The notes below the pieces were generated by a model. The model had not been told where the DNA came from. It worked only from the letters and a program-made list of their open reading frames with translations, and did no database searches. The position numbers and the translations under genes are program-made. A stretch of DNA of 64,000 nt from Ruegeria sp. SCSIO 43209 (GTDB lineage Bacteria; Pseudomonadota; Alphaproteobacteria; Rhodobacterales; Rhodobacteraceae), in the NCBI RefSeq assembly GCF_019904295.1, contig NZ_CP065362.1, forward strand, positions 124,001 through 188,000, read 5' to 3'. This document shows, piece after piece, positions 9,711-30,462 of the stretch; position 1 is the first letter of the stretch, and every line of letters starts with the position of its first letter.

Positions 9711-9744
9711 AAAAACAAAGAGGCCCTTCAGGAACTTTGTTTTT
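9711..9744. terminator. bidirectional terminator after hpa operon, originally also of tRNA-Pro
   Basis: A 10-bp stem AAAAACAAAG/CTTTGTTTTT (9711-9720, 9735-9744) gives an A-tract/T-run on either strand. It ends the hpa operon and abuts the 57-bp tRNA-derived repeat. Before integration it would have lain directly downstream of the minus-strand tRNA-Pro. Confidence 0.7.
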
Positions 9745-9800
9745 GGTCGGAGTGAGAGGATTCGAACCTCCGACCCCTGCCTCCCGAAGACAGTGCTCTA
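9744..9800. repeat. attL, 57-bp copy of the tRNA-Pro 3' part
   Basis: It is identical to 30406-30462, then diverges (AGTTATC here, CCAGGCT at the right copy). It contains the T arm and most of the anticodon arm of tRNA-Pro but no 5' half, so it is not a functional tRNA. The length fits a tyrosine-recombinase attachment site within a tRNA gene. Confidence 0.92.
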
Positions 9801-9854
9801 AGTTATCAGGAGCATGCATTCGATATCAGATTGTTCGGTAACACTATGGAAAGC

Positions 9855-9860
9855 TTGACA
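9855..9860 (+). promoter_or_regulatory. candidate -35 box of the integrase promoter
   Basis: A consensus TTGACA lies between attL and the integrase. No good -10 is seen at 17 bp; the region at 9878-9883 is poor. The promoter assignment is therefore tentative. Confidence 0.25.
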
Positions 9861-9907
9861 TTTTATACTTCATTGGTTCTCAAGGGTGATTAGGGGATAT
9901 CATGAAC

Positions 9908-9930
9908 GGTGCTGCCCCGGTGCTGCCCCG
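9908..9930. repeat. tandem 11-bp repeats near left end, candidate integrase arm sites
   Basis: Two head-to-tail copies of GTGCTGCCCCG (9909-9919, 9920-9930) preceded by G. The same double repeat recurs in the same orientation at 30319-30341 near the right end. The copies lie between attL and the preferred integrase start, where integrase binding could also repress its own gene. Confidence 0.6.
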
Positions 9931-9940
9931 AGGGAGAAAC

Positions 9941-11197
9941 ATGAAAACCGAAAAGCGAAGATTAACCGATGCTTTGGTCCGCTCTATCAACCCAACGGAA
10001 ACTCGCTCGGAGTTTGTCATTTGGGATACTGACGTAACTGGTTTTGCGCTTAGAGTTCGGGGCAAGAGCATGTCCTACGTCGTGGCATACCGTCCTGTAG
10101 GGCAAGGGCGTGCCGCCAACATGAAACGGTTTAAGATCGGTTCGCCCAATTCAATAACGAATGTCAAAGAGGCCCGGCGCATGGCCCTCGCTGTTCTAGG
10201 CCGGGTTGCTACCGGAGTGGACCCGAACGCTGAACGTGCAGAAGAAAAGCGTCGTACGCGCTCAACAGTGAAAGAAATGCTGGACCGCTACGACGAACAC
10301 CTTGAACGCCGGGATTACGTGACCCGCACCGATGTCATCAGCCTACTCAGGCGACGGTTAAGGCCAATGCTTGGCCGCGAAATATCGGAAATCAAAGCAT
10401 GGGAGTATGCGGAGATCATCGAACGTCTCGATAAGAAAAGCGGAGGCACTGCAGGCGGCACTTTCCGGACTCGTTGCTCGACTTTCTTGAACTGGTGTAC
10501 ATTCGATGCTCGGGTATTGGAAGTTAACCCCTTAGCTGGATATCGCCGCCGTCGCGACACCCGATCAGAGCGCGTAAAGAAGTCCGAGATGGGGCGAGCA
10601 CTCTCCGACGCGGAGATTTGCACGATCTGGCAAACTGCGGACACGAAAATGTCTTTCGGTCGATTAGTGCGGTTTCTGATATTGACCGGGTGCCGTCGAA
10701 ACGAAGGCGCGAAGCTTCTTTGGGACATGGTTGATCTGGATGAATGTCGGATAGAAATGCCGGCGACTTTCACCAAGCAGGCGAGAGGACACACGGTTTA
10801 CGTATCCGACGAGTTGGCAAAAATGCTGGTTCCGCTCAAGGAAAACAGAGTCGTGTCCGATTTCGTGTTTCCTTCTCCACGAACCGGCGGCCCGATGTCC
10901 GGTTGGAGTAAAATTATGGATCCCGGTGACAAGCGAACTGCCGGCGGATCAAAACCCGGTGCGCCAGGCTTTGTAATTCGTTGCGGAGTTCAATTCACTT
11001 TTCACGACTTGCGACGCACATTTAGAACAGGATTGTCCCGCCTCAATGTCGATACGGAAATCGCCGAGTTAGCGCTGGGGCACGCCCGGTCTGATCTGGA
11101 GGCACGTTACAACCGGGATGACTGTGAGGCGGGTTTGCGAAGCGCGTTTCAAACTTGGGGGCAACACGTGGACCGCATCGTGACGCTTGGTAATTAA
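9941..11197 (+). CDS. tyrosine site-specific recombinase (phage/island integrase)
   Basis: With the start at 9941 the protein has 418 residues. The N-terminal DUF4102-like arm-binding region contains FVIWDTDVTGFALRVRGKSM, followed by a SAM-like core-binding domain and the catalytic domain. Catalytic residues read as Arg252 (TGCRRNE), His355 and Arg358 (FHDLRRTF), His381 (LGHAR) and nucleophile Tyr390. An upstream in-frame ATG at 9902 would translate through the tandem repeats; the 9941 ATG has the RBS GAGGGAG. It presumably integrates the element at tRNA-Pro. Confidence 0.93.
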   Translation: MKTEKRRLTDALVRSINPTETRSEFVIWDTDVTGFALRVRGKSMSYVVAYRPVGQGRAANMKRFKIGSPNSITNVKEARRMALAVLGRVATGVDPNAERAEEKRRTRSTVKEMLDRYDEHLERRDYVTRTDVISLLRRRLRPMLGREISEIKAWEYAEIIERLDKKSGGTAGGTFRTRCSTFLNWCTFDARVLEVNPLAGYRRRRDTRSERVKKSEMGRALSDAEICTIWQTADTKMSFGRLVRFLILTGCRRNEGAKLLWDMVDLDECRIEMPATFTKQARGHTVYVSDELAKMLVPLKENRVVSDFVFPSPRTGGPMSGWSKIMDPGDKRTAGGSKPGAPGFVIRCGVQFTFHDLRRTFRTGLSRLNVDTEIAELALGHARSDLEARYNRDDCEAGLRSAFQTWGQHVDRIVTLGN

Positions 11198-11221
11198 CTT
11201 CAGCAACTTAGCATCTTAAAC

Positions 11222-11304: not shown

Positions 11305-11424
11305 ATAGTAGATAACCTTGCCCCCGCCGCAATGGAACGGTCGGAACGGTGTAACGGATGGGATGCGGCAGCAAGGTCTTACCTGAAACGAGCGCACAAA
11401 GTGCGAGCGAAGAGGAAAGACCGC

Positions 11425-11646
11425 ATGCTTGACTGCAATTCGTCACCTGAAATTCTTGATCTACAATCACTGCCGATCTCAGCGTTCGTTACGAGAGCGC
11501 AATTGGCTCCGTTTTTGGGCTTCTCGCTGCCGACTTTGAATAGATGGGCAAGCGAAGGAAAGGGGCCGCGTATCACTTATCTGGAGAACCGGCCCCGGTA
11601 CCGTGTCAGTGACGTTTTGGCATGGATTGAGGAGGGGCGGAAATGA
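11425..11646 (+). CDS. AlpA-like / excisionase-type HTH protein
   Basis: The 73-residue protein contains a MerR/AlpA-like winged helix: FVTRAQLAPFLGFSLPTLNRWASEGKGPRITYLENRPRYR is followed by VSDVLAWIEE. This layout (initial HTH, charged wing, tryptophan-containing last helix) is typical of small directionality factors or regulators in integrative elements. The start at 11425 is chosen for its GAGGAAAG RBS and conserved onset; a longer frame opens at 11332. It overlaps the next gene by ATGA (11643-11646). Confidence 0.75.
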   Translation: MLDCNSSPEILDLQSLPISAFVTRAQLAPFLGFSLPTLNRWASEGKGPRITYLENRPRYRVSDVLAWIEEGRK

Positions 11647-13043
11647 ATACTCGTCTCAATCCTCTCGCCGGTCGTTACTTCAACGACCCTACACTGGCGG
11701 CTTCGGTTTCGTCGCTTGCTGAGGTATTCGCCCCGCCAACGGCCAACGAGCAATACGCATGGGCCCGGGCGAGCAATGAGCGTGCCGAAGGGCAGCGACT
11801 GGCAGATTTGTGGGCCGCTGCGGGCGACGATTTTGACAAGCAAGGCGCGGCAGTGGGTCAATGGAACCCGAACCAGTCTTACTACGCTGTGGACACCGCT
11901 GACGCGACGACGCGCCGCGGTCAAGACATTGCCGCCGAGACTTCTCGTATGAATAACGACGCTGACAATGTTGCGGCGCTAGAAGAAGCAAAGCTGGCCG
12001 CTTTGATTGGCCTCGGCGATACAGTATTGGAACACGGCGAAGCGATGGTAGGCATATCTCCGGAGGTCGCCGAAGCCTTGAATATTCCGGCTTTCCCATC
12101 CCAAACTGGCGAAGCGCTCGGCGCCCCAGCTCCCTTGCCGTCAGAAGACGAAGTCGAGGCGCGGTTGTTTGAGGAAGCCATTCGCGACGGTCTGTTTGAT
12201 ACCCAAGACTTGCTGGAAGAACGCCGGAGCGACGTCAATGTCGAAACGATCGAGACGCCAGACGGGCCTCGCATCGCAACCCGAGCAGATGCGATCGGCC
12301 AAGCCCCACACATAAATCGAGGCACCCAAGCCGCTCCGGAACTGGAGACTTATCGCACCCCGGACGGTCAGACCGGTACGGCCGAGTTTGATGTTGAACA
12401 ACGACGTTGGGTCGATACGCAGACTCGAAGAGTTCTGCCAGAGGGTACCGTCACCGGCAAAATCAGCGATACGTCAGAAGGTTTCGGAGCGACAACTTCG
12501 AACGTCACGCGAGGGAATGCGATCATTGCAGAGGCCCAATATGGGCTCGAAAGAGTTAGTGCGTTCCGCGAACTCTTGGAACAGAACCCCGGCATTATGG
12601 GAATCCCGGGTATGATCCGTGGTCTTGCACAGGATGTGGTCGCCGCGGCGGACGAGGCCGGTGCAGCGTTTGGAACGATCGATTCCGTCGACGAGGCCCG
12701 AGCGCTGGCCGCTCGAATTGGGGCTTCGGGTGACTACGATCCGGCCTTCGCACAGGCAGCCGCTTATGCGTTGGAGATGGCATATCTACAGGCCAAGGCC
12801 CAAGACCCGGGCGGCGAGGTTAACGTCCGCGAATTGGAGCGGCAAATTGGCCTTTATGACGGCGGCATCGCGGGCAACTCAAAAGTTCTTGCAGTGCTGG
12901 ATGCTCTGGAGCCGCAATTGCATGACCGGATGGCATACGGCGCGCAGCTACGCGGTGAAACGGCTCCAACAGCAGCAGCCGACACGGGTTCACCTCAGTC
13001 TTTGAGTGACGCCGATCTATTCCGAAAATACGGTTTGGAGTGA
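11643..13043 (+). CDS. phage virion/ejection-like hypothetical protein
   Basis: The 466-residue product is acidic, rich in Ala, Gln and Glu, with long helical stretches (residues about 30-150 and 280-440) and no signal peptide or catalytic motif that I recognise. A short QSLSDADLFRKYGLE C-terminal tail follows a low-complexity linker. The gene lies 3 bp before a 1063-codon gene with a phage-ejection-like N-terminus and is coupled to the excisionase-like gene upstream. This gene pairing and composition resemble internal virion/ejection proteins of podoviruses. The assignment rests on composition and neighbour only. Confidence 0.45.
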   Translation: MNTRLNPLAGRYFNDPTLAASVSSLAEVFAPPTANEQYAWARASNERAEGQRLADLWAAAGDDFDKQGAAVGQWNPNQSYYAVDTADATTRRGQDIAAETSRMNNDADNVAALEEAKLAALIGLGDTVLEHGEAMVGISPEVAEALNIPAFPSQTGEALGAPAPLPSEDEVEARLFEEAIRDGLFDTQDLLEERRSDVNVETIETPDGPRIATRADAIGQAPHINRGTQAAPELETYRTPDGQTGTAEFDVEQRRWVDTQTRRVLPEGTVTGKISDTSEGFGATTSNVTRGNAIIAEAQYGLERVSAFRELLEQNPGIMGIPGMIRGLAQDVVAAADEAGAAFGTIDSVDEARALAARIGASGDYDPAFAQAAAYALEMAYLQAKAQDPGGEVNVRELERQIGLYDGGIAGNSKVLAVLDALEPQLHDRMAYGAQLRGETAPTAAADTGSPQSLSDADLFRKYGLE

Positions 13044-13046
13044 GAT

Positions 13047-16000
13047 ATGGCTACCTATGAGCAGCTGATGCAAGCGGCCCGTCAAGCAGATGCGGCCGGG
13101 GACAGTGCAGGAGCGAGAAGGTTCCTTGAAATCGCTGGTTCGATGCTCGGATCAAGCGACGCAACACCCGTATTACCGCAATCAGCACCGCCAAAGCGAC
13201 GCCTTCCAGAGGGCAGCAGTGTCCTCATGGAAGATGACAAGGGAGGTGTCGTCTACGAGACGCCAAACGGGAACCGTGGATACACATCGCCCGGTTATTC
13301 GACCATAGATCCGGTGAAAATTGACGAAATCCTTGATGGGCAAGCTGCCGGGATCGACCGAGACACACTCGAAGCGATCATGGTCGATTATGTCGAACCA
13401 ATTGTGCGCTACCCGACCCTAGCTATTGAAGGGGCGGCGGAAGGTGCTGGCAATCTCGCCGGGGTATTCGGGGATGCGCTAAACGCTTCTTCAATGTTGC
13501 CCAATCTCTTGCCGGGGACCCAAGGCAGTCGTCCAGTATCGCAAATCAAGAGTGACCCGAATGCGTCCGCATTCGAGCAAGGATTTGCCAGCAGCATAAC
13601 TTCTCTGCCTGGAATTGGGGACGCGATTGATTATCTGACCGATCCAGTGGAGACAGACGAGGGTACAATCGTGCCCCGTGGTGGTGGTCAGAATATCAAT
13701 CATGTGGCAGGAGAAACCGTCGATACTGCGCTTGGATCACTCTTTGAAATCGATCGTAACGGTCCACTTGAACCGCGTAATCGCGGAGAGCGCTACACCC
13801 GCAGGGTATTCGAGGAAATCGGTACGTCCGTTGGTCCTCTAGCACTCGGCACATACCTTGCGAAACGTGGAACCGGCGCGATCAGCCGTGCCGCTTCAAA
13901 AGTGGCGAACAAGGAAGTCGCGATGGCTGCGACAGCGGGTACCGGCGCGCAGACTGCAAACGAGATTGCCACTTCGGATGGAAAGGGCACATCGGTGTCT
14001 GACTTAGCTGGTTCCGTTGCCGGTTCTGCGGGAGTTCCGTTGGCCAACGCCTTAACCAGGCCACTCCGGAGAATTGCCGCCAGTGTAACCAGCCCACGGG
14101 TTGCAGACGATGCAGCGCGCCAAATGATAGCCGAAGACGTGATAGACGCCTCAACATCCGTCAATCATACTGGTCAACCCGTCGATACGTCAGATCTAGC
14201 CGATAAGCTGCGAACCAAGACCGAGCTGGAAAAGACCGTTCCGGGCTATCAGGCAAGTATCGGGGAGCGCACTGGTGATATCGGCCTCCAGACTTTCGCG
14301 GAGGATACGTCCGCGAACTATGCCGGAGCTCAGAACCGGCGTCTTAGAGACAACAACGCAGCCGTGAACGCCCGTGTCGATGAACTGGCACCATCCGGCG
14401 ATCCCGCGCGCTTCCGAACCAATTTGGACCAAGGCATCGAGGCAGCACTAACAGATTCCATGCAAGCCGCCGAAAATGCACAGCGCCGTTTCGACGAAGC
14501 GTTGCAAGCCGTCACGCCAGAAATGACCGCTGCGGGGCGTGGCGCTGCTATCCGGGGTGAACTTCAAAATGCCCGTGACGCCGCATTGCAGGAAGTTTCT
14601 GATCTGATGCAAAGGGCCGAGAGTTCCGGCGAACTGGTGAACCTTTCGAAGCTGCGGCAACGATTTGATGATCTGACAGCGCGGCTAGAAAGCGAAGAAT
14701 TGAACGCGGCTCGCCGTTTCATGCCGGATGAGGTGCAAACGGTTCACGAACTGGCACCGCCCTCCGCTGATGAAACCGATGAATTGGTCGGGTTGATCAT
14801 GTCAGACGGTGCGGACGGATCGCCGGTCATGGGACCGGCCTCTCAGGTTGGCAGCGTCCGATCAGGATTGGCCGAAGCAAGGCGCAGCCCATCCACGACC
14901 CCCCAGCAAAGGCGCATGCTCTCTACCTATGAGAACGAAGCAGAGAATTTCCTGCGGGATGAGCTTAGCGGCGAGAGCATGGAGGCGCTCGACGAAGCCA
15001 GGCGTTTGCGGGCCGATGCTGGGCGCCGTTTTGAAGAACCGGATGCGATCGGGCGCACACTGGCGGAAACAGGCCGCGGCACGAGCGCAACGGATCTGCG
15101 GGGCTACCAGCTTCCGGATGAGGCAGTGCCCGGCCGGTTTGTACGCGCCAATGCGGGCGATACGGACTTTCAGCGTTTGATGGCAGAAGCCGGTGATGCG
15201 CCGGAAGTACGTCGAGCGCTTCAAGATCAACTCGTCGCAGAAGCGCAGCGGCGTGGTGCATTGAAATCTCCAGAGGCTCTGTCTCGGTTCTTGGCCGACT
15301 ACAATGTACAGCTTGAGCAATTCCCGGAAACACGCCGAGCACTCGAAGAGGCAGGCGCGTCGAGCAATATGTTGGATAAAGCCACAAAGAATGCCGAAAC
15401 GCTTCGGCGAGATATCACACCCGGGGGCAAGGCTCCGGAAGGCCAATATACCCGATTTGCACCAGAAGATGCCGTCGGCAGTATCAACAACCTGGTCCGC
15501 GGCTCTGACAGCGGCGGTGTCGCCGATCGAACGCGCCAGCTGATCCAACGTGCCGGAGGCACCGAGAAAGCGCGTCAGGACCTCAGAGCGGGTTTCTGGC
15601 AGTGGATCGACAGTAGCGGCGGGGGCTCCGGAAAAGGACGCTTCTCAGCGACTCTTGAAGGCGAACCGCGCTGGAACGCGAAGGCGATGGTCAACAATCT
15701 CAATGACCCGAAGGTGAGAGAAGTTGCCAAAGAACTTTGGCCCGGCGAGGAATTCCGCTCTTTCGAAGTGATTGAAGACATTTTCCGGCAACTGGAGGCC
15801 GCAACACCCGGTCGAACAGCCGCAGCCGGCCGATCTGGCACAGCTCAGTCTATGGCGCGGTTAGAGGCTCAGAGGGGCGCTGCGACCACAGCGAGACGAG
15901 CGTCTGCAGATATCCGGGCGGTTGGTCAGGGACGTATGGCGGTGCCTGTCGCACTCACTGGATGGGTTGCCGACGGCTTGCGCAATTTGAGTGTGAAAAC

Positions 16001-16238
16001 ACGTCGTATCGCGCTTGAAAAGCTCACGGCATCAGTCGCCAACGACCCGGATCTGCTCGCCAACATCCTGGAAGAATTCAACCCTGCAGAGATGGCATAT
16101 TCGAGCCGCTTGATCACACAGAGATACGGTGTGCGGGCGTCTCAGGTTCTCGAAGTGCTTCGGCAGATCAACGAGACGCACCCGGACAACGTCGCCTCCG
16201 ATGAAGACGAACTGCTCGATCTCATCCTCGCGGATTGA
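13047..16238 (+). CDS. large phage ejection-protein-like (internal virion) protein
   Basis: This 1063-residue protein begins YEQLMQAARQADAAGDSAGARRFLEIA, a helical motif I recognise at the N-terminus of many phage internal virion or DNA-ejection proteins and large polyvalent proteins. Next comes a glycine/alanine-rich, partly hydrophobic region (about residues 115-170 and 255-340) that could insert in membrane. Residues about 400-800 are long heptad-like helices with many Ala, Glu and Arg. No lytic transglycosylase motif was recognised. The start has a weak RBS (GGAGTGAGAT) and follows the previous gene by 3 bp. No capsid or tail genes accompany it. Confidence 0.5.
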   Translation: MATYEQLMQAARQADAAGDSAGARRFLEIAGSMLGSSDATPVLPQSAPPKRRLPEGSSVLMEDDKGGVVYETPNGNRGYTSPGYSTIDPVKIDEILDGQAAGIDRDTLEAIMVDYVEPIVRYPTLAIEGAAEGAGNLAGVFGDALNASSMLPNLLPGTQGSRPVSQIKSDPNASAFEQGFASSITSLPGIGDAIDYLTDPVETDEGTIVPRGGGQNINHVAGETVDTALGSLFEIDRNGPLEPRNRGERYTRRVFEEIGTSVGPLALGTYLAKRGTGAISRAASKVANKEVAMAATAGTGAQTANEIATSDGKGTSVSDLAGSVAGSAGVPLANALTRPLRRIAASVTSPRVADDAARQMIAEDVIDASTSVNHTGQPVDTSDLADKLRTKTELEKTVPGYQASIGERTGDIGLQTFAEDTSANYAGAQNRRLRDNNAAVNARVDELAPSGDPARFRTNLDQGIEAALTDSMQAAENAQRRFDEALQAVTPEMTAAGRGAAIRGELQNARDAALQEVSDLMQRAESSGELVNLSKLRQRFDDLTARLESEELNAARRFMPDEVQTVHELAPPSADETDELVGLIMSDGADGSPVMGPASQVGSVRSGLAEARRSPSTTPQQRRMLSTYENEAENFLRDELSGESMEALDEARRLRADAGRRFEEPDAIGRTLAETGRGTSATDLRGYQLPDEAVPGRFVRANAGDTDFQRLMAEAGDAPEVRRALQDQLVAEAQRRGALKSPEALSRFLADYNVQLEQFPETRRALEEAGASSNMLDKATKNAETLRRDITPGGKAPEGQYTRFAPEDAVGSINNLVRGSDSGGVADRTRQLIQRAGGTEKARQDLRAGFWQWIDSSGGGSGKGRFSATLEGEPRWNAKAMVNNLNDPKVREVAKELWPGEEFRSFEVIEDIFRQLEAATPGRTAAAGRSGTAQSMARLEAQRGAATTARRASADIRAVGQGRMAVPVALTGWVADGLRNLSVKTRRIALEKLTASVANDPDLLANILEEFNPAEMAYSSRLITQRYGVRASQVLEVLRQINETHPDNVASDEDELLDLILAD

Positions 16239-16272
16239 GTTTACTACAGGTAACAGATTGGAAAGGAAGACT

Positions 16273-16902
16273 ATGGGACATTTATCGATTTCCCCCATGG
16301 AATACCCGGTTATTGGCGGCTCAACACTGGCCGAGATCGTCGAACGTTTTGAGCTTGGCCCAGATGATGAAGCGTCACGCATTGAGACTTGGCGCGGGTT
16401 CGCTGAAATAGCTTTGAGGGGTGAGGCGGAAAGGTCTGGGGCAAAGCCGACAGCAGACCTTGGCCCATTACACAAACTCGGCCATGAAGCGTTGGTCTCG
16501 ATCATCGGAGAATGCCTCCGGCTCGCTTGGGAAAGCCATAAACCGCGGCGGAAACGTAAACGCGGCATCGATATCGCGCTCTGCTTGTTCGTGGTCTTTC
16601 TGGTCGTCGAGGAACGCAAGCTATACCCAGGAGCCAGCGACAATCGCGTTTTCACAAACCTGGCCCAGTTATTAGGTCCCGGGATCGAACCGGACACGAT
16701 ACGGGGCGCGTATAAGCGCGGCCTCCATGTCTATTCCACTTTCTACCGACGCGAAGACGACGCCTCAATTCTCGCGCTCGCCCATCTAAGAGAAACGTTT
16801 TTCGACGAGTTCTGGAACGCGCACAAGAGTTCCGAGAAATACCGGGAAGATCGTGCTTTTTGTCAAAACTCCGGACGCCGAAAACAGTGGTGGGAACAAT
16901 GA
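16273..16902 (+). CDS. hypothetical protein of the element, 209 residues
   Basis: I do not recognise this family. The start at 16273 has the RBS GAAAGGAAGA. The protein has a central basic patch (KPRRKRKRG, about residue 95) followed by a hydrophobic helix (IALCLFVVFLVV) and a C-terminal charged region with LRETFFDEFWNAH. The single hydrophobic segment could be a membrane anchor or a buried helix. The gene lies between the ejection-like gene and a small HTH gene, 34 bp and 12 bp away. It may be regulatory, but nothing in the sequence proves it. Confidence 0.6.
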   Translation: MGHLSISPMEYPVIGGSTLAEIVERFELGPDDEASRIETWRGFAEIALRGEAERSGAKPTADLGPLHKLGHEALVSIIGECLRLAWESHKPRRKRKRGIDIALCLFVVFLVVEERKLYPGASDNRVFTNLAQLLGPGIEPDTIRGAYKRGLHVYSTFYRREDDASILALAHLRETFFDEFWNAHKSSEKYREDRAFCQNSGRRKQWWEQ

Positions 16903-16914
16903 ATGGAGATTCGA

Positions 16915-17151
16915 ATGGCAGAGGTGCGAAACGCAGTTATCCCTTGGCAAGAATGCCAGTTTGTATCACCAAGAAATGCGAGCCGCATTCTCGGGCTTCG
17001 ACAAGGCGCGCTCAATGACCGGATTCGAGCGGGTGAGCTAGAAGCGAAAAGACTACCCGGTGGTCAGCAAATCGTAATCTCAGTCGAGAGCGTAACTCGT
17101 CTGGTAGAACGGTCCGAGGCCGTCCAGCTGACCGCCCGAAATGAGGCATAG
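16915..17151 (+). CDS. small HTH DNA-binding protein
   Basis: The 78-residue protein reads as an excisionase/MerR-like HTH: FVSPRNASRILGLRQGALNDRI, then AGELEAKRLPGGQQIVISVESVTRLVER as wing and closing helix. A GGAGATTCG stretch precedes the ATG at 16915; an ATG four codons earlier (16903) is also possible. It is immediately upstream of the primase-helicase and could control replication or gene expression of the element. Confidence 0.6.
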   Translation: MAEVRNAVIPWQECQFVSPRNASRILGLRQGALNDRIRAGELEAKRLPGGQQIVISVESVTRLVERSEAVQLTARNEA

Positions 17152-19902: not shown

Positions 19903-19964
19903 TATAGGGTTTGAGACCAAGCGAGTTCGATACTTTGTGCCGATGCGCGCTAATCGGGTTGTAG

Positions 19965-20158: not shown

Positions 20159-20237
20159 CCCGGCCCCCAACCCGGGTGTTTCGTGAACAACAAGACAAAA
20201 TGTCCGGTTTTCGCTACTCCATGCGGGGGTACTTAAA

Positions 20238-22128: not shown

Positions 22129-22155
22129 GGCCTCTCCTTTGCCTCGATCAAGCAA

Positions 22156-22570
22156 CCAGAAAACCCGTCAAGCCACAACCGAGGAACAACAATCGGTGAG
22201 CGAACTTTTCAAATGAAGCTGTCGGAGTGGGCAAGGAGCGAATAAGCTGAATGATCGCAGCGGGCTAGATGCGGCCATACCCTGCGATGCCTCTGATTGG
22301 TCGAATGAACCCAATGCCGCCATTACGGTCGAATTAGGATGATACTAGCGCACTGGACAGCTAGGGCTCTGAACCAAACCTTGTCAGTTCGCACTTGCTT
22401 AGGAATAAGTCGTTTGCTGCACGAAGCGCCAACAACTACTCTTTGAGCATAGCTCATTGAAAGTGGTGCCTTGAATTTCTGCATGGGAGGAAAGGACTAT
22501 CAGTCCACCTCAGAACTCAGCATCAAGGCGGAGCATCCAATGAGGCGATGTCGAGGCCGATGAAATCCGG
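22156..22570. other. non-coding gap in cargo region
   Basis: About 415 bp with no convincing ORF, RBS or clear repeat on either strand. It probably contains the promoter of the Ntn-hydrolase-like gene and decayed sequence. Confidence 0.5.
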
Positions 22571-23344
22571 CTATTGGAGCTCTTCCATAATTCGGTCGTA
22601 AAGGGTTTGATATTCAGCGTGGATCTCAGCCTTTTCGAGCCTATGGACAACGCCAGGGTGCAATTTGCTTCCTATGGGAAGTGGATCAAGAACTGGGTCT
22701 GCACCTCGCGTCCACGAATCATCGTTTTTCAGTTCCCACTTTCGGATCAACCAAGCCAACATGTCTGCCATTTGAAGAGCCGGATAGTCGTTATCGGAAG
22801 CAAACTCGGGAAGGCTGCATGAGAAGCCGGAGTCATAGGATGAATACCAGCCTTCAAGTGCGTTCCAATTTTCGAGTAGCTTCTTCGCCTCAGTCCTATC
22901 GTCAAAAACGGGTGTTAACGGACCTGTAACCCCAAGTTGCTCACCCATAACAACGATCCCAGCCAGTGATCTTTGGAATGCAAAGGAGTATGGGTTGCGA
23001 ATTAGTCTCTTGAACTTCTTCGCATGCTTTATGTGGCTCATAGGCCACTTGATCGCTTCCACGGCCGTCTTGTGATCTTCCAGATTGAACGACAATGCGC
23101 AAGTGAAGCAATCGGCACTTTCGAACGCATGATAGAAGCTAACGAACAAGTCGACCTGAGCCTCCGAGCGCATAATCTCACTCGCTTTAAAAACTTCCCC
23201 CCGATCACTTGGTATAAGGGGAAGAAGTTTATTCCAGTTAGCTACTGCGTCGCACTCCGCATTTGTCTGGTCATTGAAAATAACCCCCGCTAGGACGAAT
23301 TTTCGATTGCAGATGCTTTCGTCGAAATAAACCTTCCAGCTCAT
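22571..23344 (-). CDS. DUF3800 family protein
   Basis: The 257-residue protein begins WKVYFDESICNRKFVLAGVIF, the characteristic YxDES motif of DUF3800, and ends its core with YPALQMADMLAWLIRKWE. The conserved acidic residues (Asp8, Glu9 and the Asp of QMAD) are arranged as in an RNase H-like fold. DUF3800 proteins are common on mobile elements and near restriction or defence genes. The ATG overlaps the stop of a 51-codon ORF upstream (ATGA), indicating a two-gene unit. Confidence 0.8.
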   Translation of the reverse strand: MSWKVYFDESICNRKFVLAGVIFNDQTNAECDAVANWNKLLPLIPSDRGEVFKASEIMRSEAQVDLFVSFYHAFESADCFTCALSFNLEDHKTAVEAIKWPMSHIKHAKKFKRLIRNPYSFAFQRSLAGIVVMGEQLGVTGPLTPVFDDRTEAKKLLENWNALEGWYSSYDSGFSCSLPEFASDNDYPALQMADMLAWLIRKWELKNDDSWTRGADPVLDPLPIGSKLHPGVVHRLEKAEIHAEYQTLYDRIMEELQ

Positions 23345-23496
23345 CGGACACGCCGGTTTGCGCAGTAGATTACCCGATCCGCGAGGTTGTCGGCAATTGT
23401 GCGATCACCGCTTCTTACTTGCGGGCAAATTTCGTAGCGAAAGTCTTTGATGTCGTGATCGCGAAACTTAATTGCATCGCCTAGAGGTCTCTTCAT
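23341..23496 (-). CDS. 51-residue hypothetical protein translationally coupled to the DUF3800 gene
   Basis: An ATG at 23496 opens a 51-codon frame ending in a TGA that overlaps the DUF3800 start by 4 bp. The product is basic (MKRPLGDAIKFRDHDIKDFRYE near the start, and a CANRRVR C-terminus). The upstream RBS is weak (GGGGGCAC). The overlap is the main evidence for expression. It could be a leader or a partner protein; I do not recognise a family. Confidence 0.45.
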   Translation of the reverse strand: MKRPLGDAIKFRDHDIKDFRYEICPQVRSGDRTIADNLADRVIYCANRRVR

Positions 23497-23744
23497 TCCG
23501 AGTGCCCCCGTCCTTGAATAAACACTGCTAATAGTTGATTATTTTGTATCGCGGTAACTTGTGCGTCAACGACGGCTTAAGTTGGGCCGCGATGCAGCGA
23601 TGAAAAAAAATGGTATCCGCGGTAGGTCGTTCGCGAAACTTTGCAATGTTTGTTTGCTGCGCACAGCAATCATTGGTGGCGACTTGTACTGCGACCACTG
23701 CGCAAGACGGTTATTTGGCTATATCTGTCTTCTACGAAATAAGG

Positions 23745-24284
23745 CTATTCGTTTCGCAAAACCCGATAAACCGAAGCCCGCCCAATCCCAAGCGACTTGG
23801 CTATCTCCGTCGCGCCCAAGCCCTGTGCATGCATCTCAGCGACCTGTTCACGGTCTATCGTTGCTCTACGCCCCTTGTAGACGCCCTTGGCCTTTGCACG
23901 CGCGATACCTTCGGCCTGCCGTTTGCGGATCATGGATCGTTCGAATTCGGCAAAGGCGCCCATCAGATGCAGCTGCAGCTTTGAGAGCGGATCGTCCGCA
24001 TCGGGTGAGAAGCGCAGCCGCTCTTGCATGAATTCAACCGTGACGCCCTTGTCGTTTAGTTCGTCAACAATGCTCTTAAGGTCGCGCAGATCCCGGGCCA
24101 AGCGATCGAGGCTGTGAACAATCACCTCATCGCCTTCCCGGGCAAAGTCGATCAAGTCTCGAAGCGCTGGCCGATCCCTGTTCGCTCCACTCAGTTTCTC
24201 TTCAAAGATCTTCTCGCACCCCTCCAACTCTTGCCGGTCCAAGTTCTGATCTGTTGTGCTTACTCTGCGATAACCGATTTTCAT
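23745..24284 (-). CDS. serine recombinase (resolvase/invertase)
   Basis: The 179-residue product is a complete small serine recombinase: MKIGYRRVSTTDQNLDRQ carries the nucleophilic Ser9, HSLDRLARDLRDL forms the active-site Arg cluster, and an E-helix (FAEFERSMIRKRQAEGIARAKAKG) leads to a C-terminal HTH (GATEIAKSLGIGRASVYRVL). An ATG two codons upstream (24290) is equally possible. No transposase or terminal inverted repeats were found beside it, so it is more likely an orphan resolvase or invertase than part of a Tn3-type transposon. Confidence 0.9.
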   Translation of the reverse strand: MKIGYRRVSTTDQNLDRQELEGCEKIFEEKLSGANRDRPALRDLIDFAREGDEVIVHSLDRLARDLRDLKSIVDELNDKGVTVEFMQERLRFSPDADDPLSKLQLHLMGAFAEFERSMIRKRQAEGIARAKAKGVYKGRRATIDREQVAEMHAQGLGATEIAKSLGIGRASVYRVLRNE

Positions 24285-24317
24285 TTCCACACCGTGTCCC
24301 GTTTGGTTCTAGACTCG

Positions 24318-24668
24318 ATGTAAGAATCACTTCGATAATTACAAGACATTTATATGATACATTTTTAGTGTCTCACCGCTCCGTTTTGGTGGGGTGTACC
24401 CAAACGAGACCAGTGCGTAGCAACTTTTTTCAAAAAACTTTCTGCCCATGTGTACGGCGTTGTCTGCCGGTTTGTATTTAGTTGTCCGGTCTGTCGGTCA
24501 GTTCGAAGTACAAATTTCAGTAGCGTATCCGTTTGGTGGGATACAAACGCAATACAATGTCTGCTTTGTATGTCGCTGTAAGCTATTGCCAACAAACAAC
24601 AAACTACATGACTTGAAGGTTCTCATCTGTCTAAGATTCACACACAGCAACAAAATTAGGAGAACCGA
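24318..24668. other. intergenic region with related CGTTTGGTGGG repeats
   Basis: The gap between the divergent recombinase and a small ORF holds CGTTTTGGTGGG (24382-24393) and CGTTTGGTGGG (24530-24540), plus an inverted repeat GTATCC-N8-GGATAC (24525-24544). These may be recombinase or regulator sites. No gene is convincing here. Confidence 0.3.
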
Positions 24669-24917
24669 ATGCCAGAAAATGAAGAGACTTATTTCCGCCA
24701 GGCGGTTGCTGGAGCACGCGCCTTCAAAGAAACCGAAGAGACGGAATCGTCGCTAGAGTGGATCGACGATCTAGAAGGTATCGCGATCAACGGAAGTCAC
24801 GAGTACATGATCAAATCCCTCAGAGAGCTAGACAGGCTTGCAAAATCTGAGAACGAAGAGATCAGTGCGAAGGCGAAAGAGGCGCTCGAATTAGCGCTCG
24901 AATTGACCAAGGTCTAG
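24669..24917 (+). CDS. small acidic hypothetical protein
   Basis: The 82-residue protein is strongly acidic and helical, with the heptad-like tail LRELDRLAKSENEEISAKAKEALELALEL. The start has a TAGGAG RBS at 24657-24662. No family is recognised. It stands alone between the serine recombinase and a minus-strand lipoprotein gene. Confidence 0.6.
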   Translation: MPENEETYFRQAVAGARAFKETEETESSLEWIDDLEGIAINGSHEYMIKSLRELDRLAKSENEEISAKAKEALELALELTKV

Positions 24918-25055
24918 GAGGCTCCGGCTTCTCTTACAGCGTGCGGGGCCCGGGAAATTCGGACCCCGACCCCTGGGGTATAGACCAATTTTGCGCCGAA
25001 AGCCTGCGCACCGGCCGCGTAGAAAAATGTATGGATCTGGAACTTTCAAAGCTCT

Positions 25056-25301
25056 TCAGACTGCACCGCCTTTAGCGACCCTCGCCTTGTGTACCGCGAG
25101 GCTGTTTTCAAACGTGGTTATGTTGTTTACGCTTTCCTCAAAGCGCTTCTTGAAATCAAGATATTCGGAACAGCGTTTGCCGTTATCGCGACAGTCTATC
25201 ATTAGCTCTTCGCCGATCTGGTATTCCCTCGTCAGCCGTTCGTTTGTGCCCGTACAGGCTGTGAATGGTAAAAGGATTAAGATAGACAAGGCTCTCAACA
25301 T
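25056..25301 (-). CDS. small lipoprotein
   Basis: The 81-residue product begins MLRALSILILLPFTAC, a short signal peptide with lipobox LPFTAC, so it should be lipidated at Cys16. The mature part is about 66 residues and contains a Cys pair in MIDCRDNGKRC. The start has a GGAGG RBS. Small element-encoded lipoproteins with this look include superinfection- or entry-exclusion proteins, but no homology is claimed. Confidence 0.65.
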   Translation of the reverse strand: MLRALSILILLPFTACTGTNERLTREYQIGEELMIDCRDNGKRCSEYLDFKKRFEESVNNITTFENSLAVHKARVAKGGAV

Positions 25302-25721
25302 AGCATCCTCCGAAATGGGGTATTTTTCCAGTCGCGAACTATCAGGGTCCCTATTAGAGCGGGCTAAGAAAAAAAACTGCAGCAAAAACCGGGGAAAAGG
25401 AAGCAGCTTGCTCAACCGCATTGCGAAATTCCACCCAAGCTCAATTCGACCGTTTAGTTCGCCGAGCAAATAACGCCGTGTTCTTGAGTGCTAGTTCAGA
25501 CTTTCGTCACGCCCCAATAAAGGTCAGAAACGCGGACTTTAACTGCCGCTGCTCCGATGTCGGCTTTCAGATTGGCAAGGCAAAATCGGTCGATTTGGCC
25601 TTGGTCATAAACTCCGGGCAAAACTTAGGGGCCCAGCATCGCCGAGGCCCTGAAACCAGCAGCTAAGTTTGTCCATAGTCAGGATGCGACGGGCGGCCGT
25701 AACCGCCCGTGCAAAAGGCAC
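25302..25721. other. gap with a GC-rich hairpin
   Basis: About 420 bp between two minus-strand small genes. ACGGGCGG/CCGCCCGT (25689-25696, 25703-25710) forms an 8-bp hairpin just past the stop of the gene at 25722-25913, probably its transcript end. No other structure or convincing ORF was found. Confidence 0.45.
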
Positions 25722-25913
25722 TTACTTTTTGTGGACATGCGCCGAAGAAGAGCGCACAACCCGAGACACTGGGTTGTTGGAGCGGTGCGATTGCACTTGC
25801 TTACTCTGCGCATAGTGCTTCGCATAGTTCCCGCCGAGGCTTGTGGTCGCAGCCGTCGCCAAACTTACGGCAGCCTTTGCTACCGACTTACTTCCCTTTG
25901 AAAATAGACCCAT
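25722..25913 (-). CDS. small hypothetical protein, 63 residues
   Basis: The ATG at 25913 has the RBS AGGAGGAG. The product is basic, with an alanine-rich hydrophobic segment (SVAKAAVSLATAATTSLGG) and a Ser/Arg/His-rich tail. A longer frame reaches upstream to 26132 but overlaps the start of the next gene on the other strand. It may be a membrane-active or secreted small protein; function is unknown. Confidence 0.45.
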   Translation of the reverse strand: MGLFSKGSKSVAKAAVSLATAATTSLGGNYAKHYAQSKQVQSHRSNNPVSRVVRSSSAHVHKK

Positions 25914-26090
25914 TTTCTCCTCCTGGGTTAATTTGTTCGGAGGCGTCATTGCCTTCCGATAAGCCTTTTTTGCATGGGCAAGTTTGCGAGTAAGCTCCGT
26001 CACCGCTTCAGAAAATGGAGTGATCCGGAGTTGACGGGAGAGTTGGGTAATCTGAAATGGACCGGCGTGTAAAAGGAGGCTGGAACAGAG

Positions 26091-27578
26091 ATGCAGAGCT
26101 ATAGAATTGAAGGTTTCAAGGCGCGAGTTCAATGGGCGATGATGAACTTGGGTGCTGCCAGCGACATTCTCAATGATCTAGACCTGTTTCGTTTGTCTAA
26201 GACAAAGGAATTCTACAGCGCTTTGGAGTACGTAATGAAGGGATCGGTTCCGTCAGAGACATTATTCTACGACATCTGGGGTGGACGGGAACCGGTGCCC
26301 TGGCTGCTAGTAGACGCCCTGCTAGAAATCTTCCCTTCTGCTGAGAAAGAAATGTTCACGACGAAGCACCTGTCGGATTTTCATGATCTGACAGCAGAGT
26401 ATGAGTCAAAGGTTGCTCCATGGTTGCTCGCGACCGACGACGTGGCCTCGGAGCGGGGGCGTTTGGCTCGCGCCGCCAAGGAGTACTATCAGTCCGTCGA
26501 TGAAGCGCCGGAAGGAATTCCTTTAGTCGCGAAGAAAGGGTGGTTGCTCGAATGTCCGATCAGGCTCAAGGAGCCCAAGGCAGACGAACAGGCCCTTCCG
26601 AGCCTTGCAGGCGAAGTTGCTGACGTAGTCGGCTCTCCGCTTTGGCCAGGCGGACCGGACTACATGGCACTTAAGACTAAAGCGATCAAGATCCGGAAAG
26701 GGATGAAAGCAGAGATCACAAACGGCATAACTTTCAGGCTTATCGATTTCGAGGCGAAGGAAGGCATGCCAGAATTCACGTTCTCTGAGGGCTACTACTA
26801 CAATTACGTGAACACCTTGGAGGTTCTGGCGGCCGAGTTCGCTCTCCACCAGCGCTCGCCAAACACCCTAGGGAAGCGCGGATCGCCAGAACAAATCTTC
26901 CACCTGAATCAGCGCTCCGCGTTTCCGGGGGTTAACTGTCTGCTCATCGTGAAGAACTTTGAAGGCGACCGTGAGTCCACAACGACTCAGTTCATTCTTC
27001 ACGAAAGAACCCAGAATACGATGGAAGCGCAAAACACCATGCACGTAATACCTGCCGGGGGACACCAGCCTCACAGGCAAAACTACGGTACTCCGATAAC
27101 ACGGTCGATCTGGCGCACGGCCGTGCGCGAATTCATCGAAGAGTTGTTCAACAAGGAAGAGCTATCCGGGATTAATACCAGCGGGATAGATTTCTTAAAG
27201 CATCCCGATGTCGCTCCGTATGTGCGCACAATCTTTAAAACACCCGGCTGCGCTGAAATCTACTATCTTGGAATGGGCTTCGACCCCCTAACCACAAAGC
27301 CGGAAGTACTAGTCTCGATCATCATCGACTGGAAAGCCATCACTCGCGCGCGTCCGGCTCTGTCGAAAGGCAACTTTATCAAGAGTATCGAGCAAAACTA
27401 CGAAGGTGGTACGGTTCACCCGGTGCCTTTGTCTCCTGAAAATCTTGTGCGGGAAGCCAAACAGGGACGTTACGGCAAGCCAGTGTTGCCAGCGGGCGCT
27501 GCATGCATGATGCAGGCCGCCCAACCAGGCTTTTTGGAGAAGATGCTTAACCTAGACGTTGAGCGGCAGAACGATTGA
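26091..27578 (+). CDS. Nudix-domain protein with long N-terminal extension
   Basis: The 495-residue protein starts after an AGGAGG RBS. Residues about 280-460 resemble a Nudix domain: MHVIPAGGHQP (316-326) is followed by SIWRTAVREFIEELFNKEEL, in which Arg346-Glu347-x-x-Glu350-Glu351 matches the REuxEE core of the Nudix box, although the first glycine-spaced half is altered. The N-terminal 270 residues are mostly helical with a possible HTH near 30-90. The family is not recognised. Nudix-fold proteins can hydrolyse or sense nucleotides; in this cargo region a phage-response role is plausible but unproven. Confidence 0.55.
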   Translation: MQSYRIEGFKARVQWAMMNLGAASDILNDLDLFRLSKTKEFYSALEYVMKGSVPSETLFYDIWGGREPVPWLLVDALLEIFPSAEKEMFTTKHLSDFHDLTAEYESKVAPWLLATDDVASERGRLARAAKEYYQSVDEAPEGIPLVAKKGWLLECPIRLKEPKADEQALPSLAGEVADVVGSPLWPGGPDYMALKTKAIKIRKGMKAEITNGITFRLIDFEAKEGMPEFTFSEGYYYNYVNTLEVLAAEFALHQRSPNTLGKRGSPEQIFHLNQRSAFPGVNCLLIVKNFEGDRESTTTQFILHERTQNTMEAQNTMHVIPAGGHQPHRQNYGTPITRSIWRTAVREFIEELFNKEELSGINTSGIDFLKHPDVAPYVRTIFKTPGCAEIYYLGMGFDPLTTKPEVLVSIIIDWKAITRARPALSKGNFIKSIEQNYEGGTVHPVPLSPENLVREAKQGRYGKPVLPAGAACMMQAAQPGFLEKMLNLDVERQND

Positions 27579-27884
27579 TCGAAAAAGCAACTCGGCTTCA
27601 TTTGCCCACCTTTGGCAAATCGGAAGTTCGCCGTTCCGCAGCATTCAGGTCAGATATGGGTTCGTGGCAGACTTGCGGCAGTGCGGCATGGCCTTTAGGC
27701 TTTCAGATGATCATCAAATAGAATTGAGAGATTGCTTAATCCTCAACGCCTCTGAAACTGTTCGGCTGAATCAGCCCGAAACTGAGAATAACTTTCGAGA
27801 AACCCCCTCGAAATTCCCTATTTTTCTCCAAGTTTTCATCTGCGAATGATTCGCCAAGAGCAAACAGCCTAAAGGGGCGAGCAG
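27579..27884. other. non-coding gap
   Basis: About 300 bp separating two plus-strand genes, AT-richer than the flanks. No convincing ORF or strong repeat was seen. Confidence 0.45.
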
Positions 27885-28409
27885 ATGTATGTATCAACGG
27901 AGAAGTGCTTAAATCGATCGGCCAAAGAATATGCCGATGGAGCTCTGGTACTCCTTGAGACGTTCAACCGAAGTGAATCGGATGAGCGTTGCGAGGCTTC
28001 GGATTACATCTTCGATCTCTACAACTTGGGGTATGCGTTCTTTAGAATTCGCACGATGATGGCGAAAGGCCCTGACACAGTTCCGCATGACTGGTTGCTT
28101 AGACGAGAAGTTTCGCGGGCGCGGAGAAACGTTTTGGCTCGATATCCGCGCCTGTTGAACGAACGAATTGTCAATGAAGGGTTCAATGCGCTGGAAGAGC
28201 TTTTTGAGTTCACTGGAAATGTGGAGGCCCAGCCAAGGAGCGGAACCAAGACAACGGCGCTGGCAGTGTCACACTTCTTTCAGAATATTCTGCACAATAT
28301 CTTTGTAGGTTCGCGGTACGGCCTCTTGGACCTCGATCGAGCACTTGGAAAACCATCATCGGCACAAATCTCTCCGACACACGATCCTGATCAGAGGCTG
28401 CTGATATGA
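27885..28409 (+). CDS. hypothetical protein, 174 residues
   Basis: The start has a GGGGCGAG RBS. The product is helical, with ALVLLETFNRSESDERCEASDYIFDLY and a long C-terminal half. There is no signal peptide or recognised motif. It converges on the OLD-family nuclease gene, 25 bp apart. Whether the two function together cannot be told. Confidence 0.5.
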   Translation: MYVSTEKCLNRSAKEYADGALVLLETFNRSESDERCEASDYIFDLYNLGYAFFRIRTMMAKGPDTVPHDWLLRREVSRARRNVLARYPRLLNERIVNEGFNALEELFEFTGNVEAQPRSGTKTTALAVSHFFQNILHNIFVGSRYGLLDLDRALGKPSSAQISPTHDPDQRLLI

Positions 28410-28434
28410 CGTGAGTCTAAGTCACCGCTCACTA

Positions 28435-30198
28435 TCATATCTGTGATGCATCATGGGGAAGGCCGTTCGCTGCACGGATCAAGGCAGCAAGTTCGTTAAG
28501 TCGAGCCTTTAGGTCGAGCCGACTGATGTCCGCAGGTTGTTGACACACACGAAGCGCGGCCCCGACTTTGTCGCCTTTGGTGTATAGTTTGGAATCTGGG
28601 TTTTTGGGTTTTCGTCTTAAAAAGTAGAATGCATGATCGTAGGGGCCAACATCGCTCTTCTCTAGATAGATCGACGGATGGCAATCTTTTAGCGCGTTGT
28701 GCAGAGCATCAGGCTCTACATAGTTTTCGATCTCTCGGCCTTTCGTGATCCAAACAACTCCGTCGTCATTCATTTCGTTTTTGATGCGTTGAGCGGCTGG
28801 TTTGAGATGGGCACGCGCGCTGTTTTTGTCGCTGTCAATGACAATAGCGATGTTTCGATTGAGCTCTTTCAAACGAATAAACTCTTCAAGCGCATCATCA
28901 TCTGCGCTTAGGTGGCTAATCAAACCACCGCCGTAGAAGAGGATACAATAATGTGTGCCTTCCGCGAGCTCGGGTGCAACGCTCGTCAACCAATGGCGGA
29001 TGTAGATACGGTCTGAAGGCCCCTCTACCCATATCACAGCATTGGCTTGCAAAATATCTGAGGCGCGATAACCAAGTTTATCAACGATACCTCGTTTTTG
29101 TGACTGGCTTACTGCTTCTTTAACGTAGGTTTGAGTGCCGTCGTTTTCTACATGAAAAACCGAAGCACCCGGTGTATCGATAAATGCAGCCGAGTGAGTG
29201 GCAATAAAGTACTGGTTAGAAGTGTTTTCTTGAAGATAGCTAATTAACTTGCGCTGCAACAAGGGATGTAAGTGTATCTCAGGTTCCTCAATACACATGA
29301 TCTTGTGTTGGTGAATCGTACAAAATGCAGCGATCAAAATTACTTCGTGGATACCAGTGCCAAGCGAAGAGAGAGGGAGAACCTTGTTGTCGATGTGAAC
29401 AAGTAAATGCTGTCTGCTACTGGGTACTTCCAACACTGCATCAGGTTTGCCTATTACCGTTCGAACGAATGCGTTAATCTGGTCGAATGCCGCCTTCAAG
29501 TCGCGTTCATGGTGATCAGGGTTTTGAATTCCGGCGAGATGATCAATCAGACCTTTGCCCGAGAGATCATCGAAGGTTTCATCTTTGGGTCCCAACTGGC
29601 GTTTGGCGGGTATAAGCATGCTTTCAGGAAGATTTTGCTTCAATCCGGCGACGATTAGACCGATAGTTTCTGGAACCCAATGAAGTGTTGGATCGCCCCC
29701 TGTTTTATTTGCGAGAATAGTCCATAGTTCGTACCAATTACGCTGATTTACCCAACCAACTGCGTTGTCCACCTGGACTTCGTTTAGCGCCGCTGGGCAC
29801 GCGTTAGCGCCTTCGGGTTGTACCCATATATGCCCATGGAGACTCACCCGTTCTAAAATGGCCTTTAAAGTTTTAACAGGGCTAGTCATCCCCCATGGCG
29901 CAGATATCAGGCGTTCTTTAAATACGTCCAAAGCACTATCGAGAGGGATTCCGATTGCGCTTGCTAAGTGACCAGTTTTTTCTCCGCGGTATGTATTTGC
30001 CGAGGTGGAGTCAGGTTCACTGGCAGTCAACCCTTCTGAAAACGGTAGACATTCGTTCAGAAAATTCAGAATGATCGATTTGCCAGAGTTATTCTCTCCC
30101 ACAAAGAAGTTTATCTTAGAGAAGGGGCAGATGTATTGGGTCTCGGGACCGATGCCTCGATAGTATTGAACGCTTGCGCCCCGAAGAAAAACCGGCAT
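28435..30198 (-). CDS. OLD-family ATP-dependent nuclease (AAA_15 ATPase plus TOPRIM)
   Basis: The 587-residue protein has Walker A GENNSGKS (34-41), an ABC-type signature LSSLGTGIHE (277-286), Walker B MCIEEPEIHLHP (301-312) and the switch THS (334-336). A TOPRIM domain follows, with WVEGPSDR (Glu392) and VIDSD (Asp455, Asp457). This is the architecture of OLD-family nucleases, including P2 Old and GajA. No UvrD-like GajB partner is adjacent, so it is probably a stand-alone class 1-type protein. In such elements OLD proteins usually interfere with phage growth. Confidence 0.87.
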   Translation of the reverse strand: MPVFLRGASVQYYRGIGPETQYICPFSKINFFVGENNSGKSIILNFLNECLPFSEGLTASEPDSTSANTYRGEKTGHLASAIGIPLDSALDVFKERLISAPWGMTSPVKTLKAILERVSLHGHIWVQPEGANACPAALNEVQVDNAVGWVNQRNWYELWTILANKTGGDPTLHWVPETIGLIVAGLKQNLPESMLIPAKRQLGPKDETFDDLSGKGLIDHLAGIQNPDHHERDLKAAFDQINAFVRTVIGKPDAVLEVPSSRQHLLVHIDNKVLPLSSLGTGIHEVILIAAFCTIHQHKIMCIEEPEIHLHPLLQRKLISYLQENTSNQYFIATHSAAFIDTPGASVFHVENDGTQTYVKEAVSQSQKRGIVDKLGYRASDILQANAVIWVEGPSDRIYIRHWLTSVAPELAEGTHYCILFYGGGLISHLSADDDALEEFIRLKELNRNIAIVIDSDKNSARAHLKPAAQRIKNEMNDDGVVWITKGREIENYVEPDALHNALKDCHPSIYLEKSDVGPYDHAFYFLRRKPKNPDSKLYTKGDKVGAALRVCQQPADISRLDLKARLNELAALIRAANGLPHDASQI

Positions 30199-30318
30199 GA
30201 ATAAGCCCTTAGTCTAATTTAGTCGATTAGCTGCAACCTACGGATTGCCAACTCCGTGTGCAATGTGACCTGACGCGAAACAATCGAACGAAGAATCCAC
30301 AATGGCATTCAACTTTGT

Positions 30319-30341
30319 GGTGCTGCCCCGGTGCTGCCCCG
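30319..30341. repeat. tandem 11-bp repeats near right end, candidate integrase arm sites
   Basis: GTGCTGCCCCG occurs twice head to tail (30320-30330, 30331-30341), preceded by G, exactly as at 9908-9930 and in the same orientation. The pair lies 64 bp inside attR. Identity at both ends supports a role in excision or integration. Confidence 0.6.
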
Positions 30342-30405
30342 CATTGACAGACAAACCAGATTGCTCGCCAAGCAGCCCTTAAGATGTTGTAATTATTAAT
30401 AATAA

Positions 30406-30462
30406 TGGTCGGAGTGAGAGGATTCGAACCTCCGACCCCTGCCTCCCGAAGACAGTGCTCTA
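30406..30462. repeat. attR, 57-bp repeat within tRNA-Pro
   Basis: It is identical to attL at 9744-9800 and forms the 3' part of the intact tRNA-Pro gene, so integration leaves the tRNA sequence complete. Confidence 0.92.

Follow-up and report, generated by a model that had tools for sequence, protein, structure and literature searches.

To our knowledge, the phage satellites known so far act on the capsid size, terminase or late genes of a helper phage, or bring capsids of their own. Among the closest described systems, the PICMI of Vibrionaceae are compact marine satellites with an int-alpA-primase layout that typically sit at fis and carry DUF3987/DUF5906 primases, and for which no terS homologue is reported (PMC10803314). 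The cfPICI and MulchRoom/MiniFlayer satellites encode capsid and terminase sets, and proteobacterial PICIs have an Rpp protein (PMC10690885). Here, we describe a 20.7-kb island from Ruegeria sp. SCSIO 43209, a marine Ruegeria-type bacterium with a 4.6-Mb genome. The window analysed (hereafter the window) is a stretch of 64,000 nt, positions 124,001-188,000 of the forward strand of NZ_CP065362.1. With a probability of about 0.68, we read the island as an integrative satellite of temperate RHph_N65-like podoviruses that would redirect packaging by means of a re-targeted small terminase subunit (TerS), made up of an HGGxSTG protein (HGG) and a TerS without its helix-turn-helix (HTH), and would supply ejection proteins of its own.

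The island is flanked by exact 57-bp direct repeats of tRNA-Pro sequence, as an initial annotation of this DNA had claimed. The left attachment (att) site, attL (9744..9800), copies the 3' part of the tRNA gene, and attR (30406..30462) lies inside an intact tRNA-Pro(CGG) gene (30406-30482, minus strand); a repeat scan of 8-33 kb returned no other direct-repeat family of at least 25 nt. The left part of the island is all on the plus strand and consists of an integrase gene (int), an excisionase-like gene (xis), ejB, ejC, an uncharacterised protein gene, a second HTH gene, a primase-helicase gene, a non-coding stretch, hgg and t. No capsid, portal, tail or large terminase (TerL) family matched any of 19 island open reading frames (ORFs) in Pfam or any of the 10 left-half ORFs scanned against PHROGs, in agreement with the initial annotation; in those scans, only the xis HTH matched a packaging family, and weakly so (TerS family phrog_57, E 0.006). 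Two general features of satellites are therefore present by these scans: the island has no complete virion gene set, and it has site-specific integration with its own integrase.

Two plus-strand genes, ejB (11643..13043, 466 aa) and ejC (13047..16238, 1063 aa), encode the putative ejection proteins. Neither these nor the TerS-like protein gave a useful family match on its own, and searches of the PDB with the ejB and ejC sequences found nothing convincing; all were identified through related phages, which bore out the ejection-like and TerS-like calls made from the letters of the DNA. ejB matched 78 proteins, the window's own entry among them, and tblastn located it in one annotated phage, RHph_N65, where the product is labelled 'putative injection protein'; searches of annotated phages with ejC gave no match. 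Both genes are homologous to neighbouring genes of temperate RHph_N65-like podoviruses, in which the ejC-type gene lies 3' of ejB. On viral contigs, ejB and this next large gene end a morphogenesis block that runs TerL, portal, scaffold, capsid, tail-region genes, N65_008, N65_009, ejB and the ejC-type gene, often followed by a lysin-like gene and an integrase. Of 23 annotated phage loci (leaving out L019, which shares a contig with L025), 18 have an N65-type capsid gene within the fetched sequence. The capsid gene of L017 matches phrog_9953 'major head protein'. Residues 1-99 of the ejC protein are 43% identical to an ejection-block protein of another podovirus contig (L005), whose gene lies immediately 5' of the portal gene and two genes 3' of a gene matching phrog_4287 'DNA ejection protein'. 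Gene context and homology together support an ejection role for ejB and ejC. The start of ejB overlaps the stop of xis, and the ejection proteins are therefore probably made together with the excision switch.

We also noted that the motif at the N-terminus of ejC, MATYEQLM..AARxADAAGD (13047-13137 of the window), recurs on otherwise unrelated ejection-type proteins (L005, L006 and L020), rather like an address tag that can be swapped between proteins.

Six such elements are now at hand: that of the window, one in Ruegeria conchae TW15, and those labelled G149, G285, G946 and L070, the last a 53.7-kb IMG/VR record (G826). ejC occurs in all six, complete in the window, TW15, G149, L070 and G285 and as a relic in G946, and at different gene positions among them. 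Because G285, L070 and G946 came to light solely by way of t or hgg, the presence of ejC in them is no artefact of how they were searched for. The ejC of G285 is 35% identical to a gene of phage L041 over ~700 residues (E 7e-100), and the ejB/ejC pair of L070 is 56% and 50% identical to the pair of RHph_N65, whose gene at the ejC position is of the L070 type. Virion genes of the elements outside the window were checked by BLAST against reference phage proteins only.

The closest named relative found, the TW15 element, is 19.3 kb long, lies at the same tRNA-Pro, has att repeats and is syntenic with the island, with mostly different cargo; the int, ejB, ejC and primase proteins are 86-88% identical between the two. 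To judge from sequence divergence, the island is a mosaic: dS between the window and TW15 is 0.36-0.72 for primase, ejC and ejB and 1.4-1.9 for three flanking chromosomal genes, and int (saturated), xis, the 16129..16902 protein and the second HTH gene are at least as diverged as the flanking genes. The G149 element, from another genus, is 17.7 kb long and has att repeats at the same tRNA-Pro; over the aligned parts its proteins are 58% (int), 45% (xis), 41% (hgg) and 43% (t) identical to those of the window, its ejC is placed after t and not after xis, and no ejB match was found in it. The G946 element is 15.3 kb long with 60-bp repeats at tRNA-Tyr. G285 and L070 carry primase-hgg-t blocks, and L070 has an integrase. 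The primases are modular: the window's protein matches G285 with its N-terminal half, the G285 protein matches G149 with its C-terminal half, and the G149 protein matches L070 with its N-terminal part.

A maximum-likelihood tree of 32 ejC sequences, holding the window, TW15, G149 and L070 among the elements (G285 and G946 were left out of our trees), required three or more satellite/phage changes. G149 paired with phage L026 (100/100), L070 fell among the N65-type phages (100/100), and the window grouped with TW15 and proteins of unplaced context. The program warned of long branches, chiefly L041 and L047. Shuffled labels were equally clustered in 91/500 trials, so the ejC tree shows repeated exchange and not a satellite clade. 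We infer that this exchange ran from phage to satellite. A quick ejB tree needed two changes. Between the window and TW15, dN/dS was 0.106 for ejB, 0.132 for ejC and 0.161 for the primase; all three genes are under purifying selection.

The second half of the proposed device lies downstream. The HGGxSTG protein recognised in the initial annotation scored 31.1 bits against the NCBIfam cut-off of 29 (NF041373); its gene, hgg (20238..20810, plus strand), overlaps by 4 nt the start of t (20807..21115, plus strand), which encodes a putative TerS core of 102 aa. N65-like phages carry a TerS of 149-195 aa. Its N-terminal part shows weak to moderate similarity to small-terminase families: 6/10 match Pfam Terminase_2, one above the cut-off, and 4/6 match PHROG TerS families. 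A profile of ten phage TerS matched the solved TerS 7joq over most of its length (E 2.5e-7), as well as 6w7t (E 2.5e-4); in 4zc3, 3zqp and 2cmp it matched the N-terminal part. A paper on PaP3 TerS, which lists structures 6W7T and 7JOQ, describes the N-terminal HTH as the main DNA-binding determinant and a ring core of helices 4-5 and strand 1 (PMC7672466). It is the ~55-residue DNA-binding HTH of the phage TerS that t lacks. The satellite proteins begin past the HTH in the window, G149, G285 and L070, and that of G946 aligns with G149 from residue 1, such that the HTH is absent in 5/5 satellites with an intact hgg-t pair. Alignment of the satellite and phage profiles with hhalign gave a probability of 98.25 (E 2.7e-14), only downstream of the HTH. 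The residues P-H-E-M-T are kept in all 14 aligned t/TerS sequences (G946 has P-E-E-M-S). A C-terminus of the form hydrophobic-F-x is found in 10/10 phage TerS and 4/5 satellite t proteins, that of L070 ending I-L-G, and the five HGG proteins end VFK, VFG, VFS, IFG and IFG. The satellite t profile matched 16/19 records, one being L070 itself and several having been picked for t; among 12 records picked via ejection genes, 9 carry a TerS that matches it.

hgg has relatives in G149, G285, L070 and G946. Wherever the pair is intact, in all five elements, it overlaps the start of t, the overlap measuring 4 or 19 nt as judged from ORF-finder starts. It was not found in 20/20 phage records, the sole positive being the L070 record, itself a query row. 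The constant overlap, the absence from the phage records and the alike C-termini suggest that HGG and TerS act together on the packaging motor. HGG proteins have conserved Cys and His residues, and a PDB search with HGG sequence found nothing convincing; HGG may replace the missing HTH of TerS. Across 390 genomes, 44 had an HGG match at E <=0.001, and the match covered most of the profile only in the window's own genome and G946. Besides the window's own, we fetched 11 of these loci, of which only that of G946 had t and ejC matches.

Several further loci touch on these genes. The window's genome holds two more HGG genes (L109/L110, at ~2.73 Mb of G000:C1), ~4 kb apart in a near-exact repeat and adjoining a tRNA-Arg and an integrase that resembles the one in G228; this region is perhaps a second element. 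Another HGG gene (L117, G861:C12) lies ~12 kb from a relative of the island's flanking gene, possibly marking another element; the ORF before it is primase-like and shares 41% identity with part of the L070 primase. G228 itself has a second capsid-less kind of element (L011, G228:C63, 16.9 kb), with an integrase, a primase, a helicase, a short HGG ORF and three ejection-type genes of another phage family (phrog_4287 and phrog_5880 matches), which we treat as a parallel case outside the count of six; relatives of its integrase, primase and helicase occur with HGG and without ejection matches at L125 and L127. In another genome of the genus, a 42-kb podovirus-like prophage (L020-L022 and L051, G345:C8, ~144.7-186.9 kb) occupies the same tRNA-Pro between 51-57-bp repeats and adjoins the same flanking gene as the island; its ejection block belongs to another family and shares 48% identity with one of the ejection-type genes in the G228 element, and the prophage has no N65-type capsid gene. 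Three candidates were rejected. G127 has an ejC-like C-terminal half (512 aa), but 80 kb of sequence there matched neither int nor hgg of the island, and it was read as a remnant; a 94-residue partial match in G629, in an unsupportive context, was set aside, as was a weak TerS-like match in a 142-aa ORF of G378 with no hgg or ej match in 40 kb.

The remaining left-half genes make up integration and replication modules, and the integrase, excisionase-like HTH and primase-helicase named in the initial annotation all have family matches. The tyrosine integrase (9902..11197, plus strand; PF00589 E 1.8e-14, phrog_1) is 86% identical to that of TW15 and 58% to that of G149. xis (11332..11646, plus strand) encodes an HTH_17 excisionase/AlpA-like protein (PF12728; phrog_66 'excisionase and transcriptional regulator'). 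The product of 16129..16902 (plus strand) has no family match in the Pfam and PHROGs scans, and its true start is probably further in because the TW15 homologue aligns from residue 57. The second HTH_17-like protein (16903..17151, plus strand; PF12728 E 0.0015, below the cut-off) has relatives in TW15, G149 and G285. The primase-helicase (17257..19902, plus strand) matches AAA_25 (E 1.1e-28) and phrog_16593 'DNA primase' (E 4.5e-37) and neither DUF3987 nor DUF5906 at E 0.1; a search for it among viral contigs confirmed none. Together with the iteron-like stretch that follows, it forms, by sequence, a replication module of satellite type. This conserved non-coding stretch (19903..20237) had been proposed as a candidate origin, a call that gained four clustered GTAAATTG repeats, with four copies kept in TW15 as well. 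Of 5 copies in the 64-kb window, 4 lie within 19965-20158, and an 8-mer repeated at least 4 times arose in 199/20000 Markov simulations of the 335-bp stretch, so that the repeats give the candidate origin modest support. Substitutions relative to TW15 are spread evenly over codon phases in this stretch (23/18/21), compared with 73/36/188 in the primase. To the right lies cargo mostly not common to TW15 (21295..28409: a DUF3800 protein, a serine resolvase and unassigned ORFs, from Pfam), then an OLD/AriA/GajA-like ATPase (28435..30198, minus strand; AAA_15 E 7.9e-20, with AriAB E 2.7e-21 and GajA matches in PADLOC-DB) that is probably anti-phage defence cargo.

Everything past gene content, namely helper dependence, packaging and injection, we infer as follows. 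Infection by a helper, or a helper prophage, would activate the island, which would excise and replicate from the 19.9-20.2 kb stretch. HGG and the HTH-less TerS would then steer the helper TerL to satellite DNA, and the ejB and ejC proteins would be built into helper procapsids, replacing or sitting beside the helper's own ejection proteins, to deliver satellite DNA into the next cell. We put forward more tentatively, at slightly less than even odds, that the elements form a new satellite family whose capture device has two parts. One would be a split, re-targeted TerS in which HGG gives an HTH-less ring new DNA recognition. The other would be ejection proteins owned by the satellite, acquired repeatedly from different podoviruses, which would be fitted to helper virions to deliver satellite DNA and perhaps change which cells it can enter.

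Several observations weigh against the satellite model. In TW15, an internal deletion (L023 17509-17790) has taken out most of hgg and t and joined the beginning of the former to the last part of the latter, indicating that the module is broken or dispensable there. The ejC of G946 is a C-terminal relic, ejB was found in only three of the six elements (window, TW15 and L070), and N65_009, third in the phage block, turned up in none of the satellites. For G285 and L070 we found no att repeats, and for G285 no integrase either. The satellite t profile alone found no TerS match in the PDB, and 3/12 ejection-picked records had no TerS match. Finally, the N65-type capsid gene was not found in 7 genomes (six satellite hosts, counting G228, plus G345), with 4/4 phage controls matched; the window's genome is among them. 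A search of the same genome with N65 TerL gave no match and was run without a control, and searches for phrog_5880 in this genome and phrog_9953 in the genus led nowhere, with controls silent too, and are uninformative.

Of the alternatives, the one that survives best, although we consider it unlikely, keeps the island a satellite and makes the HTH-less TerS an inhibitor: as a dominant-negative subunit in the helper's TerS ring it would block helper packaging, the island being packaged via a site for the helper terminase and HGG doing something else. A ring subunit without an HTH would be expected to poison DNA recognition, this HTH is missing from all five intact pairs, and SaPIs have both a TerS and the phage-packaging blocker Ppi (PMC6893505). 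The constant hgg overlap, the lack of hgg in phage records and the similar hydrophobic-F-x C-termini of HGG and TerS instead suggest joint action. A somewhat less probable alternative is that the ejection-type proteins are weapons or shields, poisoning helper virions or blocking the entry of other phages into the host cell. G149 and G285 have ejC without an ejB match, and an incomplete set is therefore tolerated; near full-length homology to phage proteins and the phage ejB-ejC order kept in three elements speak against this reading, though they are compatible with interference. We regard as very improbable that the island is a decayed N65-like podovirus prophage retaining an integrase, replication genes and two ejection genes: ejB, ejC and the TerS core do have homologues in phages that possess capsid and terminase genes, and single-gene decay is real in TW15 and G946, but the island integrase has no BLAST match to the N65-type integrase, the primase is only weakly similar to the N65 helicase/primase (26% over ~200 residues), int, xis and hgg-t are common to other capsid-less elements, ejB-ejC lie between xis and the primase where the phages have them after N65_008/009, and the recurrence of ejC in capsid-less elements, the repeated phage/satellite switches and purifying selection on ejB and ejC argue against decay.

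The satellite interpretation of the initial annotation is thus supported by capsid-less relatives, repeated switches and purifying selection. It had named, as a sign of decay, homologues lying consistently in intact prophages; the ejection homologues do lie mostly in phages with capsid and terminase genes, but decay is not shown by that alone. The annotation had also called this combination one not known from a described satellite, and among the titles and abstract openings listed from open-access PMC full text, we found none describing a satellite that carries ejection genes or pairs an HGGxSTG gene with TerS; in the sole open-access paper found to mention both 'phage satellite' and 'ejection protein', the second term occurs in a reference title only. 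If true, control of the injection step would add a stage to virus-on-virus parasitism and could affect which cells satellite DNA enters. The HTH-less TerS with its HGG partner would offer a specific hypothesis on what the so far unexplained HGGxSTG family does, and a natural setting in which to test whether DNA recognition by TerS can move to a separate protein. An overlapping hgg-t pair together with ejC in one element could serve as a search signature for satellites of Alphaproteobacteria.

Compared with described systems, the island shares with RHph_N65 and its kin homologues of ejB, ejC and the TerS core. Unlike the island, these phages have records of 40-52 kb with TerL, portal, scaffold, capsid, tail and lysin genes, an unrelated integrase, a TerS with an HTH, and no hgg; the island has no TerL, portal, scaffold or capsid gene upstream of ejB-ejC, and its integrase is not like theirs. 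With PICMI it shares the compact marine int-alpA-primase plan, but it lies at tRNA-Pro, has an AAA_25 primase-helicase, a TerS core and ejection genes, and falls outside the PICMI definition. Like cfPICI and MulchRoom/MiniFlayer, it encodes some virion functions (PMC10690885), but these comprise only ejection-type proteins and a TerS core, and the Pfam and PHROGs scans found none of the major capsid, portal and TerL genes that cfPICIs own. By role, the island appears to resemble PICIs with their own TerS: like PICI/SaPI-type satellites, it has an integrase, an HTH/AlpA switch gene, a primase-helicase, a candidate iteron origin, a TerS-related gene, accessory genes and a tRNA-type att site (PMC6092414), and it differs from them in a TerS that lacks the HTH and overlaps an HGGxSTG gene, and in its ejection-type genes.

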